A DNA stretch of 64,000 bases from Williamsia soli. GTDB taxonomy: Bacteria > Actinomycetota > Actinomycetes > Mycobacteriales > Mycobacteriaceae. The position numbers and the translations under genes were made by a program. The stretch spans positions 62,001 to 126,000 of the forward strand of contig NZ_JAFRDR010000009.1 of assembly GCF_017377795.1 (NCBI RefSeq), given 5' to 3'. The notes under the pieces are model-generated. The model had not been told where the DNA came from. It ran no database searches and saw only the letters and a program-made list of their open reading frames with translations. Numbering within the stretch: the stretch's first letter is position 1; each line of letters starts with the position of its first letter. Below, piece after piece: positions 21,841 through 58,662 of the stretch.

Positions 21841-21992
21841 CTCGTCTCTCCTGTCCGTCCTCGTCTCTTACTGTCGGTCCTCTCCCACCCTTTCACTTCG
21901 AGACCGGGCCAGGTACCCGAAACGCGTTCGCCTGTCTTTTCGGTCAGGTCACCCCGAGCGTCTTTCGGCGGGCAACGGCACAGATCCGGATA

Positions 21993-31073: not shown

Positions 31074-32210
31074 GTGAAGCCTTTCCGGGAACTCGGCCTG
31101 CGCCGCAGCGATGTCGCCGTGGTGATCGTCGTGGCTGTTGTCGTGCTCGTCGGAAGTTTCCGGGTCGATCACGGCGGCGCAGACTCCCACTCCATCGACG
31201 CCCTGGCCATCGCGCTGGGCGTGATCGGGGCTCTGTCGCTGGGACTGTCGCGTCGCTACCCGCAGGTGATGATCGCCATCGCGGCGGCAACGGTTTTCAC
31301 CTATCTGGCCCGCAGCTACCCCGGTGGGCCGGTGCTGCTGGTCGGGCCGGTGTCGATGGCGCTGGCCGGATATCGCGCGTCGCGCATCGTCGCGCTCGTG
31401 GGCGCCGTCGTGATGGCGGTCGCGGTAATGGCCGGCGCATGGGTTGCCGACGGCGATCTCGGGATCATCGGAGTGGCCGGGCCGGCGTGGGCATTCGCGT
31501 TGACGCTCGCCGGCATGTTGCTGGCAGCACGGACCGAGCGCGTGGCGGCGCAGAAGGAACGTGAGGAACTACGGCGGCAGCAGGCGTCCACCGACGAACG
31601 CCTCGGCATCGCTCGTGACCTGCATGATTCCGTTGCGCACGCCCTCGCCACCATCAACGTGCAGTCCGGTGTCGCGGCCCATCTCCTCGATCGGCAACCG
31701 CACCAGGCCAAAGCCGCGCTGGAAGCGATTCGGCAGGCCAGCAGCGAGGTTCTCGACGAACTCGCCATGATGCTCGAAACGTTGCGGGACAGCGATCACA
31801 CCGCGCCGCGGACGCCCACGGCGGGATTGCCGCAGGTGACCGAACTCGTCGAGAGAGCGCGCCGGGACGGTGTGACCATCCGCTACGACGTGGTCGGCGA
31901 TATCGGAGCGGTCCCGTCCGCGGAGAGTACCGCGGGCTACCGCGTGATCCAGGAGTCGCTGAACAACGTGCGTCGCCACGCCGGACCGGCGGCTGCGGTC
32001 ACAGTCGGCGTGACCGTTGCGTCCCCGAATATGCTGTCTGTCAAAGTCATTGACGACGGAGGCGGGCGGTTTGTGTCGCCGCAGACCACGTCGAGCACCG
32101 GCTTGGGCCTGATCGGCATGCGGGAACGTGTCGAGTCGACCGGTGGCCGCCTGACTGTCGGCGCCGACCCAGACGGACCAGGTTACCGCGTTGCGGCACA
32201 CTGGGATTGA
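31074..32210 (+). CDS. histidine kinase (HisKA_3, DesK/NarX-like)
   Basis: 378-residue sensor kinase. About four to six helices lie in residues 14-155 with little extracellular loop, followed by the HisKA_3 dimerisation helix with the phospho-histidine H184 in RDLHDSVAHAL and a HATPase domain (GYRVIQESLNNVRRHAG as N-box, DDGGG as G1, STGLGLIGMRERVES as G2). Such integral sensors often detect cell-envelope or membrane stress. GTG 31074 begins the gene. It is paired with the response regulator encoded divergently 77 bases away. The gene ends just before a degenerate repeat array at 32213. Confidence 0.9.
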   Translation: MKPFRELGLRRSDVAVVIVVAVVVLVGSFRVDHGGADSHSIDALAIALGVIGALSLGLSRRYPQVMIAIAAATVFTYLARSYPGGPVLLVGPVSMALAGYRASRIVALVGAVVMAVAVMAGAWVADGDLGIIGVAGPAWAFALTLAGMLLAARTERVAAQKEREELRRQQASTDERLGIARDLHDSVAHALATINVQSGVAAHLLDRQPHQAKAALEAIRQASSEVLDELAMMLETLRDSDHTAPRTPTAGLPQVTELVERARRDGVTIRYDVVGDIGAVPSAESTAGYRVIQESLNNVRRHAGPAAAVTVGVTVASPNMLSVKVIDDGGGRFVSPQTTSSTGLGLIGMRERVESTGGRLTVGADPDGPGYRVAAHWD

Positions 32211-32212
32211 TT

Positions 32213-32275
32213 CGCCGACCGTGCCTTAACAACCGCCGACCGTGCCCATCAAACGGTCGACCGTGCGTTTACTGC
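32213..32275 (+). repeat. three degenerate copies of the 21-bp repeat, without a DUF559 gene
   Basis: Three units of exactly 21 bases (32213, 32234, 32255) with the cores CGCCGACCGTGCC, CGCCGACCGTGCCC and GGTCGACCGTGCG. They match the core of the arrays around the DUF559 gene at 37520 (CGCCSACCGTGCCC). They sit two bases after the histidine kinase stop, between convergent genes. Confidence 0.75.
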
Positions 32276-35696: not shown

Positions 35697-36571
35697 GTTC
35701 CTTTGAAGTTCTCGCCGCCGGTCCGCTGACCACCGTCCAGGACGAGGGCCGGTCGGGTCTGGCCGCGTTGGGTGTCGGGCGATCAGGTGCCGCCGATCGC
35801 CGGTCGTACGGTTTGGCCAACCGCCTTCTCGCCAACCCCGACGGAGCGGCCGCACTGGAGGTGACGCTCGGCGGGCTGTCGTTGCGCGTCGGCGACGAGA
35901 CCTGGTTCGCGGTGACCGGCGCCGACCTGGAGGTGTTGGTGGACAGTGGTTCCGGACCGGTGGCCGTCGGCCGCAATGCCGCGTTCGTCGTCCCCGCGGG
36001 GGGCACTCTCACGCTCGGGATGGCGCGCGCAGGTCTGCGCGCCTACGTCGCTGTCCGCGGGGGTGTCGCCGTTGAACCCACCTTGGGCTCCCGGAGCACC
36101 GACACCCTGTCCGGGCTGGGACCCGAGCCGCTCGCCGAAGGCGACACCCTGGCCATCGGACCGCGACCCGGCGATCTCCCGGATCTCGATGTCGCCGCCG
36201 TCGCCACACCGGAGGCCGACGAGGTCGAGTTGAGTGTGCTGCGTGGGCCTCGCGACGATTGGGTCGTCGACGTCGACGATTTGGTGCATACGGTCTGGCA
36301 GGCGTCCGATCACAGTGACCGCGTCGGGATGCGGTTGAGCGGCAACGCTCCCGGACTCCGGCACCGCGATGAGGACCGGCAGCTGCCCAGCGAGGGCTTG
36401 GTGCGCGGATCGATCCAGGTGCCGCCGAGCGGCGAGCCGGTGATCTTCCTGGCCGACCATCCCATGACCGGTGGCTATCCGGTGGTCGCGGTACTGGTCG
36501 ACGAAGACACCGACATCGCAGCCCAGATTCGTCCCGGTCAGTCGGTGCGCTTGCATTGGAGTCGGCGATGA
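35693..36571 (+). CDS. pxpC: 5-oxoprolinase subunit C (KipA/AHS2 domain)
   Basis: 292-residue AHS2 (biotin-independent carboxyltransferase-like) family protein. It begins [20 protein letters not shown] and contains the conserved GLSRSGAADR-like element ([20 protein letters not shown]) and [19 protein letters not shown] near the end. It partners with PxpB. ATG 35693 overlaps the pxpB stop (ATGA). The longer open frame back to 35420 is antisense-type overlap with pxpB and non-homologous. Confidence 0.95.
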
Positions 36572-37359
36572 CACACCCAGATGCCGCTGCCATCGACCCA
36601 ATCGCCGCGCGGGCACTCTTCCGCGACGGTCTGGTGACACCCACCGCGGGATGGGCTCCCGGGTGGACGCAGGCGAACCTTCTCACGTTGCCCCGCGCGG
36701 ACGCCTACGATTTCCTGCTCTTCGCGCAACGCAATCCGAAGTCTTGTCCGGTGCTCGATGTACTCGATGCCGGTGACGTCAGCGGACCGCTGTTGGGAGA
36801 CGGCGACATCCGCACCGACGTCCCGCTCTACCGCGTCTACGAGTACGGCGAGATGGTCGCTGAAACGATCGACGTCACGTCGTGGTGGCGCCCCGACCTC
36901 GTGTCCTTCCTGATCGGCTGCAGCTTCACCTTCGAAGCCGCACTCCTCGACGCCGGGGTACCCGTGCGCCACATCGAGCAGGGTCGCAATGTGCCGATGT
37001 ACCGCACGTCGAGGCGATGTCGCCCGGCCGGAAGCCTGCACGGACCGGAGGTGGTGTCGATGCGCCCGATACCCGCCGATCTCGTCGCGACTGCCGTGCG
37101 CGTCACCTCACGCTACCCGGCCGTCCACGGCGTCCCCGTTCACATCGGCGACCCTGAGGCGATCGGCATCGGCGATCTCAGTGCCCCCGATTTCGGCGAC
37201 CCTGTCGAGATCCGACCCGGCGAGATCCCCGGGTTCTGGGCCTGCGGCGTGACTCCGCAAGCCGCGGTCATGGAGTCGCGGCCGGCGCTGGCCATCGGCC
37301 ACGCCCCCGGCCACATGGTCATCACCGACGCCCGAGACAGCGACTACCTCGTCCCCTGA
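36568..37359 (+). CDS. DUF1445/YcsI-type putative hydro-lyase
   Basis: 263-residue DUF1445 protein (YcsI family; some members are D-glutamate cyclases that make 5-oxo-D-proline). It starts at ATG 36568 inside the pxpC stop, with a family-typical opening: [20 protein letters not shown] followed by [10 protein letters not shown], then [20 protein letters not shown] and [16 protein letters not shown]. The conserved cysteines and glutamate in GCSFTFE and WACGVTPQ are intact. Its presence with pxpABC suggests conversion of D-glutamate to 5-oxo-D-proline or another step feeding the pathway; the exact reaction is inferred. Confidence 0.92.
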
Positions 37360-37373
37360 CCTCTCCCGACCCC

Positions 37374-37512
37374 CGCCGAGCGTGCCCTTTCAGTCGCCCA
37401 CCGTGCCCCTCCCGACGCCCACCGTGCCCTTTCAGTCGCCCACCGTGCCCCTCCCAACGCCCACCGTGCCCTTTCAGTCGCCCACCGTGCCCCTCCCGTC
37501 GCCGAACGTGCC
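37374..37512 (+). repeat. left array of 21-bp repeats beside the DUF559 gene
   Basis: Seven tandem units (21 bases each, the last one truncated) with the core CGCCCACCGTGCCC. Two types of tail alternate: TTTCAGT and CTCCCRA/T, so the array is a 42-base higher-order repeat. Units begin at 37374, 37395, 37416, 37437, 37458, 37479 and 37500. It fills the gap between the DUF1445 stop and the DUF559 stop. Not a CRISPR array: units are contiguous without spacers. Confidence 0.9.
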
Positions 37513-37519
37513 TAGCTGA

Positions 37520-38365
37520 TCACTCTCGATATCCTCTGTCCCATAGATGTTTCCGGATCTCGTCCACGACATCTCGCGGGTCGTTCCGTATTTGTTCCGA
37601 GCGCACCCGAATGATGACCCAACCCATTGCGCCGGCCTTCGCATCACGAGCCTCATCGTGAGCGCGCTGCTGCTCGGTCGAATGGAACTCTTCGCCGTCG
37701 TAATCAACACCGATGCGATACTTCCGGTAGCCGAGGTCCAATCGAGCGAACTCGTGGCCACTGCGATCGTGGAGAGCTATCTGTGCCTCGGGCTTGGGAA
37801 GGTCACCCCGAATCATCAGGAGTCGCAACCAACTCTCGGGCGGTGACTCGGCGTTGGTGTCGATGTGGGGGATCAAACCCCGGATCTGACAGACACCGCG
37901 TTTCGCCGGATGCGCGACCACATAGGCCCACAGGTCGGATGATTCGAGACCGGTGGCCTTCATCAGGTCATCGAGATGGCCGAGCGCCCTCCACTCCGGA
38001 GGTCTTCGACCGAGGTCATAAGCTGTTCGCACCACCGATAGAACCGGAATGCCATCAACAGTCGTGACGTCACCCGGGCCCAAATCGGCACGCACCACCT
38101 TGATTCCACCACGGTTGCGGCCCTGACCGGTGGCCGGGCGACAGACTTCGACCTCGAAATCATCGTCATACCACGCTATTCCGTGCAGAATCGCTGCCGA
38201 GACCCCGCTGATGACCGCTCCCGGCCCGGCCCGTTGCAGTGCGCAGCGCATCTGCCAGGCAGGGTCGATATCTGCGTCTGGCGGAACGTGAACACCACGA
38301 TAGACCTGACGCGACGCGCGACGCGATGAACCCGAACCCCACAGTGAAACGTCACCCGATTCCAT
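37520..38365 (-). CDS. DUF559 nuclease-fold protein (AbiEi-like), full length
   Basis: 281-residue protein of the type annotated DUF559 or AbiEi family in actinobacteria. The N-terminal half carries the short VYRGVHVPPDADIDPAWQMR and VSAAILHGIA segments, and the C-terminal half the DUF559 (Vsr/PD-(D/E)XK-like) domain: E177 in ESPPESWLR, D210 in ARLDLGY, D221 and D223 in VDYDGEEFH and a Q/R-rich basic helix ending MGWVIIRVRSEQI. All expected acidic active-site residues seem present. ATG 38365. Both flanks have inverted arrays of a 21-base repeat, within 8 bases of the stop and about 95 bases of the start. Its natural substrate is unknown. Confidence 0.85.
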   Translation of the reverse strand: MESGDVSLWGSGSSRRASRQVYRGVHVPPDADIDPAWQMRCALQRAGPGAVISGVSAAILHGIAWYDDDFEVEVCRPATGQGRNRGGIKVVRADLGPGDVTTVDGIPVLSVVRTAYDLGRRPPEWRALGHLDDLMKATGLESSDLWAYVVAHPAKRGVCQIRGLIPHIDTNAESPPESWLRLLMIRGDLPKPEAQIALHDRSGHEFARLDLGYRKYRIGVDYDGEEFHSTEQQRAHDEARDAKAGAMGWVIIRVRSEQIRNDPRDVVDEIRKHLWDRGYRE

Positions 38366-38459
38366 ACACTGATCGACGGCGGCGGACCGAGATCGGTTCC
38401 ATTCTCTGACCGATCAATATCCGAAGGAGTGGACCCCAGACCCACGTCCGACGCATGAA

Positions 38460-38597
38460 AAGGCACGCGCGGATACCGCAAGAGCACGGTGGGCGACCGG
38501 AAGGGCACGGTCGGCGACCGGAAGGGCACGGTGGGCGATTGGAAGGGCACGGTCGGCGACCGGAAGGGCACGGTCGGCGGTCGTCAGGGCACGATGG
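38460..38597 (-). repeat. right array of 21-bp repeats beside the DUF559 gene, inverted relative to the left array
   Basis: Units of 21 bases begin at 38460 (degenerate), 38481, 38502, 38523, 38544, 38565 and 38586 (truncated). Read on the minus strand the core is CGCCGACCGTGCCC, the same as the left array read on the plus strand, so the two arrays are inverted around the gene. The final units run into the stop codon of the SDR gene (38584-38586). Confidence 0.9.
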
Positions 38598-39378
38598 AAT
38601 CGACGTATCCACCGTCGACGCGTACCGCTGCCCCGGTGGTCGCCGACGCCTGCGTCGACGCCAGGTACACGCACATGTTGGCGATCTCTTCGGGCTCGAT
38701 CAGGCGTTGCAGCAAGGACTGCGGGCGGTGGAGCCGCATGAACTCGCGTTGCGCCTCGTCCCACGACAGATTCCCATCGACGAGTTGGTAGACGAAGTCT
38801 TCGACGCCACCAGTGTGCGTGGGTCCAGCGATCACCGAGTTGACGGTCACACCCGTTCCGGCCGCTTCTTTGGCGAACCCACGACTGACGGCGAGCAGAG
38901 CGGTCTTCGACATGCCGTAGTGAATCATCTCCGCGGGTATCGCGATGGCGGAGTCGCTGGCGATGTTCTGCACTCGGCCCCAACCGCTTTCGGTCATCCC
39001 CGGCAGGTAACCGCGGATCAGGCGCACAGCGGCCAGGACGTTCACCTCGAAGTACCGGCGCCACTCGTCATCGGAGATCTCCAGTGCCGGCTCGGCGCCG
39101 AAGATGCCCAGATTATTGATCAGGATGTCGACGGCCGGGAGCTCACCGAGCAAACTGTTCACCCCATCGGAAGTCGTGACATCGTAGGCCACCGGGACCA
39201 GATCGGCATCCGGGACGCGGGTCTGTATGTCGCGGACGGCCGCGTCGACCTTCCGCCGATCCCGGCCGTTGATCGCCACCTTCGCTCCGGCCTCGGCGAG
39301 GCCCTTCGCGATGGCCCATCCGATGCCCTGGCTCGAACCGGTCACCAATGCTGTCTTTCCGCTGAGGTCGATGCGCAT
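38584..39378 (-). CDS. SDR family oxidoreductase
   Basis: 264-residue short-chain dehydrogenase/reductase. The cofactor loop is TGSSQGIGWAIA, followed by NNLG, and the active site has S in IASDSA and Y, K in IHYGMSKTA. Arginine in INGRDRRK after beta strand 2 favours NADP. ATG 39378 gives the normal start. The gene ends inside the right repeat array: its last codons (encoding YVDSIVP) and stop are made of repeat-derived sequence, and one can ask whether the C-terminus was altered by the array. Substrate not known. Confidence 0.9.
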   Translation of the reverse strand: MRIDLSGKTALVTGSSQGIGWAIAKGLAEAGAKVAINGRDRRKVDAAVRDIQTRVPDADLVPVAYDVTTSDGVNSLLGELPAVDILINNLGIFGAEPALEISDDEWRRYFEVNVLAAVRLIRGYLPGMTESGWGRVQNIASDSAIAIPAEMIHYGMSKTALLAVSRGFAKEAAGTGVTVNSVIAGPTHTGGVEDFVYQLVDGNLSWDEAQREFMRLHRPQSLLQRLIEPEEIANMCVYLASTQASATTGAAVRVDGGYVDSIVP

Positions 39379-39477
39379 GCCCCGACTGTAAACCGCGGAC
39401 TCCATGCCATCGGTAGGCTTGGGTGACTGATCACCACCGAAAGCACAGTCCATATCGATCGACGGAGGACGATAAAG

Positions 39478-58590: not shown

Positions 58591-58662
58591 CGCAAACCCA
58601 GGCATTGCAGGCAAACCCAGGCGTTGCAGCAACTGGGTTTGCCTAAAACACCTGGGTTTGCG
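58591..58662. repeat. right palindromic repeats beside the second DUF559 gene
   Basis: Nested inverted repeats: outer arms CGCAAACCCAGG (58591-58602) and CCTGGGTTTGCG (58651-58662), inner arms GGCAAACCCAG (58610-58620) and CTGGGTTTGCC (58633-58643). The period is 19 bases on each side (GCAAACCC at 58592 and 58611; GGGTTTGC at 58635 and 58654). It ends 12 bases before the catC stop. Confidence 0.85.

Follow-up and report, generated by a model that had tools for sequence, protein, structure and literature searches.

Facing arrays of a 21-bp repeat around a DUF559 nuclease-like gene of Williamsia soli: a possible homing-like element with lineage-specific repeats in Actinobacteria

In the 64,000-nucleotide stretch of the Williamsia soli genome analysed here (contig NZ_JAFRDR010000009.1, positions 62,001 to 126,000; the window), a gene coding for an AbiEi-like plus DUF559/MTES_1575 nuclease-like protein lies between two arrays of a 21-bp repeat that face each other across it (Table 1), which raises the question whether gene and repeats form one unit and, if so, of what kind. 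A sequence-only reading of the window had proposed a repeat-associated nuclease unit comparable to the systems of repetitive extragenic palindromes (REP) and their RAYT enzymes. The intact gene, the seven-unit left array and the inward orientation of the repeats on both sides were all recovered as that reading described them. The left units start at positions 37374, 37395, 37416, 37437, 37458, 37479 and 37500, their tails alternate to give the announced 42-bp higher-order unit, and units 1 and 7 open with CGCCGAGC and CGCCGAAC, the other units with CGCCCACC. The right array is indeed inverted, with five good units and one weak unit of three mismatches (starts 38462-38567) instead of the seven claimed, the seventh overlapping the stop codon of the right neighbour; the gaps to the gene, put at 8 and about 95 bases, measure 7 bp on the left and, on the right, ~96 bp up to the weak unit or ~117 bp up to the nearest good one. 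The arrays begin 14 bp past the stop codon of the left neighbour and 4 bp past that of the right one. They are not due to chance, because the phased-pair pattern has 149 matches in the 6.07-Mb source genome versus 0 for the reversed control.

Profiles and predicted fold divide the 281-amino-acid (aa) protein into an AbiEi-like half, AbiEi profiles covering residues 11-181, and a Vsr/EDxHD-like nuclease half in which the EDxHD-type fold is predicted and the E-D-H-D residues are present. The active-site-like residues are invariant. NCBIfam gave weak matches only, to large anti-phage proteins, in the nuclease region. Features of the HUH (Y1) tyrosine transposases were not found in the protein by profiles or fold, and no toxin gene lies between the window arrays, where the gene stands alone with converging neighbours (the neighbours were not profile-searched for a DUF1814 nucleotidyltransferase).

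Facing arrays accompany one subfamily of DUF559 proteins. The source genome contains 14 matches to the window protein, namely the window copy (L009), a copy 80% identical to it with one in-frame TAG (L010) and 12 paralogs. Among nine genomes of the genus (G000, the source genome, to G008), eight subfamily loci were found in six genomes (E 1e-60 or better) and all eight have facing arrays on both sides; close relatives carrying the gene with unrelated flanks, which would have spoken against the sequence-only reading, were not seen there. A protein scan of named genomes gave 26 loci, reduced to 20 since L096-L101 coincide with six places already counted as L045-L050. The flanks of 29 subfamily loci (8 + 20 + L225, the last found via its arrays) were scored for periodicity at 20-23 bp, with 28 other DUF559 loci from four genus genomes as controls and a cut-off of 13.1, the top control score apart from L021, chosen after the controls were seen. 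Phased 21/22-bp arrays were present on both sides in 23/29 subfamily loci (22/28 without L225) and in 0/28 other DUF559 loci; four subfamily loci have an array on one side only (L102, L106, L110 and L118), L102 and L106 being cut by N or a contig end. The control L021 reached a one-side score of 30.7 because a real dispersed element lies nearby, and at a cut-off of 30.7 the subfamily counts become 13 both, 8 one and 8 none. An inverted-match score was also tried as a discriminator; just 13/29 family loci beat the best control, because control flanks contain unrelated inverted matches, and the periodicity score was therefore relied on. Array-flanked members come from five named genera: Williamsia, Gordonia, Amycolatopsis, Pseudonocardia and Umezawaea. 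One scanned record, NZ_JNYV01000008.1 (L099), bears the title Kitasatospora arboriphila; it shares its gene layout with L098 of Williamsia muralis, at the same place as in G005, and looks mislabelled.

The motif goes with the gene as well. Both arrays of one locus share one motif, inverted, which differs between lineages: CGCCGACCGTGCC in the window group, CAGTTGGGCAC and GTGTTGGGCC in other Williamsia, CGAGTGGGCC and CGACAGAACCC in Gordonia, GGCGAGTCGGGG, TTCAGTGGGTT and others in Pseudonocardia. The units are non-palindromic direct repeats and only whole arrays face each other; they recur every 21 bp in Williamsia, in Amycolatopsis and at one of the Gordonia loci, and every 22 bp at the second Gordonia locus, in Pseudonocardia and in all remaining cases. 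Protein and motif similarity are correlated in Mantel tests (r 0.61, n 24; r 0.51, n 21 non-redundant; p 0.0002 each), a part of which is expected from shared ancestry alone, and the correlation is also found within groups (r 0.60, n 9, p 0.0008; r 0.46, n 12, p 0.03). Pseudonocardia eucalypti has three subfamily genes with three motifs. Phased pairs were counted per motif in 11 genomes: the window motif gave 149 in the source genome and 0-5 in the 10 others, the L103 motif 91 in Williamsia maris, 26 in a Williamsia metagenome-assembled genome (MAG) and 0 in 9 others, the L120 motif 92 in P. eucalypti and 0 in 10 others (with one control match), and the L113 motif 203 in P. eucalypti, 36 in P. 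spinosispora, 16 in P. acaciae and 0 in 8 others. P. spinosispora and P. acaciae carry related GAGTCGGG-type genes, and the L113-motif tails match, in many cases in P. acaciae, its own gene L115 and, in some in P. spinosispora, L110. The association of gene and arrays and the matching of their motifs are near certain.

Facing arrays led once to a gene. In W. maris the L103 motif is abundant, yet the known gene L104 has another motif; a subfamily gene was expected beforehand between facing arrays 1 kb apart in this genome and was then found (L225, 296 aa, 60% identical to L103, between 5 and 5 units). A tblastn search over 20 facing-array stretches (13 of them in W. maris and P. eucalypti, the other 7 in G001) found the family in L225 only, and no DUF559 gene lies in facing pairs up to 1.6 kb apart (L229, L230) or in shorter ones (L231-L237); as the other pairs are empty of the family, facing arrays alone are therefore not diagnostic. 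Between the L113-motif arrays of L230 (P. eucalypti, 739-2317) lie genes that we take to be ribosomal rplJ-rplL, and other genes found between facing arrays are presumably HdeD-like, CARDB-like, GNAT-like and CoA-transferase-like.

Most arrays have no DUF559 gene next to them. Within the Williamsia loci 61 distinct clusters were delimited, joined across up to 130 bp; 29 are two-stranded, 26 of them +- and 3 +-+-, and 0 start with -. Placement was examined with a simple gene caller of our own in 20 hand-picked stretches of the source genome, drawn from the 100 listed of 149 matches and containing 22 clusters. Among the matches listed, the left neighbour of the 19 clusters with + units is on the + strand in 17 and uncalled in 2, its stop codon falling within -5 to 50 bp in 14, and the right neighbour of the 13 clusters with - units is on the - strand in 12, within 20 bp in 8. 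This gene-end rule is looser in Pseudonocardia, W. maris and the MAG (29 clusters), where the left neighbour is + in 16/19 and the right one - in 10/16, with one further cluster -+.

Across 32 +- pairs the inner spacing is confined to 7-8 or 17-19 modulo 21 (R 0.97 at 10.5 bp); when 20000 uniform draws were made for the 21 spacing values outside G001, the observed R was never reached. Steps of 21 bp are explicable by unit decay, which leaves, as independent information, two classes separated by one helical turn. Such helical phasing suggests a protein on duplex DNA and would not be expected of hairpins. The hairpin-only reading, under which the tails of one element ought to match, was considered and rejected: the mean best tail identity within elements is 4.12/8 compared to 3.63 when shuffled (16 elements, p 0.04), a weak excess, and single-strand pairing does not appear to be the main constraint on the arms. 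An origin of the arrays from gene ends was considered too: the core match 21 bp upstream of the first unit is slightly better than background, with on average 6.97 mismatches versus 7.70 for the background (3/31 ends with 4 mismatches or fewer; background 2.7%), and that 42 bp upstream is worse, with 8.29. In many Williamsia elements (centres L160, L126, L170, L176 and L168) the innermost unit is a variant, approximately ATCGA[G/C]TGGGCC, which resembles the motif of the Gordonia gene L106.

The gene itself is probably gained and lost between strains. At the window site, the left neighbour is present in 7/8 other genus genomes; in the 6 compared no subfamily gene occupies the site, their members, if any, being elsewhere. 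In G007 arrays stand at either stop codon, and other genes take up the ~5.4 kb that separates them; G004, G005 and G008 have ~1.3-1.5 kb of other sequence without arrays. In G008, an open frame (L179, 5446-6699) stands where the source genome has the DUF559 gene; its end is, we assume, HNH-endonuclease-like, and the site is perhaps a hot spot for nuclease genes. Comparison of strains yielded an empty site, that of L010: in G001 the same converging neighbours are separated by ~75 bp that contain a terminator-like hairpin, no arrays and no gene, which may represent loss or the older state. Compared by eye, the element ends coincide with repeat units, the divergence being too great to judge a target-site duplication. 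Between G000, G006 and G007, the gene and 5' region at the L010 site are 97-99.6% identical and the neighbours 83-91%, and the change falls at the arrays. Third codon positions differ at 16/281 (L045) and 6/281 (L046) in the gene (94-98% identical), and at 104/371 in the left and 78/265 and 84/266 in the right neighbour (68-72% identical). The gene has thus spread recently between strains at this one site, with limits at the arrays; this strain-to-strain spread, together with the stop codon in the G000 copy, would be the rise and decay expected of a homing gene.

The reading we prefer, held at slightly less than even confidence, is that of a selfish repeat-and-nuclease element, homing-like, which targets its own dispersed arrays; binding, cutting, target choice, copying and array multiplication are all inferred. 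The protein would recognise phased 21/22-bp sites, probably via its AbiEi-like half, and two arrays facing across a short, helically phased centre would form the target complex on duplex DNA, which the Vsr/EDxHD-like half would break or nick. Recombinational repair through the arrays would then copy the gene into other alleles or elements, and since the gene occupies the centre of one element, the target there would be interrupted. The same repair may also expand and disperse the gene-free arrays, which would persist at harmless places past stop codons while some lineages would see the gene decay. That the gene moves together with its arrays is likely; nuclease action on the arrays with homing we put at a little under even; what multiplies the gene-free arrays, given G001, is the most uncertain point.

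Several observations weigh against this reading. The strongest is G001, the genome richest in repeats (394 pairs), whose assembly contains no subfamily gene, a plain counterexample to gene-dependent repeats. Phased pairs number 149, 394, 81, 8, 73, 98, 137, 155 and 0 in G000 to G008, respectively (control 0 in all nine), and G001, G003 and G008 have no subfamily match at E 1e-60, nor are any of their 16 DUF559 loci (E 1e-8) flanked by arrays. The gene of G001 may be lost or in an assembly gap; arrays stood in 3/20 stretches from contig ends (both ends of 7 contigs and one end of 6 more, out of ~40). Arrays without a link to DUF559, which would speak against a joint unit, were found to some extent, most arrays lying elsewhere, at gene 3' ends and without a DUF559 neighbour. 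The nearest paralog, L011 of the source genome (40% identical), has no arrays, and L108 (Nakamurella) and L121 (Coriobacteriaceae) have them on neither side (2/29). In W. maris, three closer facing pairs, 0.6-0.8 kb apart (L226, L227 and L228), contained other genes, and ordinary genes can also lie between facing arrays. The 21-bp spacing steps can stem from decayed inner units, and the two classes may partly go back to a small number of copied centres. At the other gene location, gene and neighbours have diverged to about the same degree (third-position identity, with short overlapping gene calls set aside, 0.849 versus 0.855-0.917 for L047/L048, 0.664 versus 0.597-0.906 for L050/L049); the signal of fast spread thus comes from one site only, where ordinary recombination between strains may also account for it.

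These observations bear on the rivals as well. A resident engine of the RAYT kind, in which the nuclease nicks array DNA and disperses non-autonomous arrays without homing, the one-site spread being ordinary recombination, would explain the matching motifs, the dispersal and the divergence of the gene at the other location. Several G001 elements share their centre sequence in either orientation, and tandem copies occur at three places, as expected of copied units; we nevertheless consider this reading unlikely, because the identity jump at the arrays and the empty site favour a gene that moves as well, the enzyme does not resemble the HUH type and a single-strand hairpin constraint is not evident. 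Alternatively, the protein could be a host DNA-binding factor acting at gene ends in termination, insulation or chromosome structure, its nuclease fold serving in repair or not at all, with arrays spread by slippage and recombination under selection. The sense orientation of arrays past stop codons, a 21/22-bp phasing and 10.5-bp spacing that fit a bound complex, and elements at shared places in related genomes all agree with this; it becomes improbable in view of the invariant active-site-like residues, the copy with an in-frame stop, and the 2/9 genus genomes with 0 or 8 phased pairs and no gene, which make the gene dispensable.

Two further readings carry little weight. An AbiE-type toxin-antitoxin or defence gene with the arrays as operators would agree with the AbiEi profile matches and with the binding of AbiEi antitoxins to inverted repeats in their own promoters, as described in PMC7319586, but the toxin gene is absent between the arrays, and neither the 3'-side array nor the gene-free ones scattered at the 3' ends of genes are promoters, which makes it very improbable. 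That arrays are merely common at gene ends and the gene happens to fall between two has next to negligible probability: other genes do lie so, including a presumably photolyase-like one in the source genome (L156, G000:C22, 1983-3574, between a 6-unit + array and a 3-unit - array) and several elsewhere, but the difference between subfamily and other DUF559 loci and the match of motif to gene across genera stand against it.

The features of the window are collected in Table 1. The right neighbour is, we assume from its sequence, of the short-chain dehydrogenase/reductase (SDR) type. The gene-free array listed last sits 2 bp past the stop codon of the gene at 31074-32210. Open frames cross the arrays (38176-38571, minus strand, in the window, and upstream of the gene in L049 and L050) with heptads such as PTVPFRS; they stay open because 21 is a multiple of three, and are likely not genes. 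Short tandem repeats of about two copies each at 21841-21882 (period 20) and 58592-58629 (period 19) are apparently unrelated to the arrays.

Table 1 Coordinates of the element, its neighbours and a gene-free array in the window
Feature	Positions	Strand	Description
Left array	37374..37512	+	seven 21-bp units, core CGCC[C/G]ACCGTGCC, directed at the gene
AbiEi-like plus DUF559/MTES_1575 nuclease-like gene	37520..38365	-	281 aa, frame open
Right array	38462..38587	-	five good units and one weak, directed at the gene
Left neighbour gene	36556..37359	+	converges on the element
Right neighbour gene	38584..39453	-	converges on the element
Gene-free dispersed array, window motif family	32213..32275	+	two good units and one weak

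RAYT (TnpA-REP)/REP systems have, according to PMC3116915 and PMC8266576, dispersed intergenic facing repeats, a gene-bearing copy flanked by the same repeats and matching enzyme-repeat pairs, several per genome; the comparison also draws on PMC3943268. As in REP/REPIN-RAYT, the repeats of the present element are dispersed and match an enzyme gene (with the exception of G001), the gene is flanked by its own facing repeats, and several enzyme-repeat pairs can occur in one genome. With facing arrays in five genera and a motif that goes with the gene, the REP/RAYT-like reading is partly supported overall. RAYT, however, is an HUH tyrosine transposase and the present enzyme AbiEi-like plus Vsr/EDxHD-like; REPs are single palindromes and the present repeats phased direct arrays with units of 21/22 bp; and the facing arms, unlike those of REPINs, are phased as duplex DNA. 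With the EDxHD homing endonucleases (I-Bth0305I) the nuclease half shares the predicted fold and the E-D-H-D residues; unlike I-Bth0305I, the gene has no intron or intein, the protein has an AbiEi-like DNA-binding half, and its presumed target is dispersed tandem arrays in Actinobacteria chromosomes. The array-bounded spread and the empty site lend indirect support to the idea that alleles without the gene would be cut and would receive it during repair. The predicted AbiEi-type fold is shared with the AbiEi antitoxins of the AbiE type IV toxin-antitoxin systems (Rv2827c), which differ in that the present protein is fused to a nuclease domain, has no toxin partner between the arrays and goes with genome-dispersed repeats. 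Arrays on both sides also separate the subfamily from the 28 other loci of the DUF559/MTES_1575, Vsr nuclease kind. The element would act both as a homing endonuclease does and as a repeat paired with its enzyme does (REPIN-RAYT), and is neither a RAYT nor an AbiE operon. No description of such a system was found in the Creative Commons-licensed literature of PubMed Central, outside which most subscription papers and preprints fall.

Tentatively, and clearly short of an even chance, we propose a new class of selfish genetic system in Actinobacteria, in which a homing-type nuclease would bind, by its AbiEi-like half, to helically phased facing pairs of 21/22-bp tandem arrays, home its gene through them and seed gene-free copies, enzyme and motif co-evolving into many private pairs. 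If true, this would be a second, unrelated solution to the role of RAYT/REPIN, built from a Vsr-like nuclease and an antitoxin-like fold. It would give a role to one subfamily of DUF559/AbiEi proteins and would account for scattered tandem repeats at gene ends in several actinobacterial genera. Natural pairs of protein and DNA specificity would be on offer, three of them in one Pseudonocardia and two in W. maris, and how bacterial repeats arise and are maintained could be tested in harmless strains.
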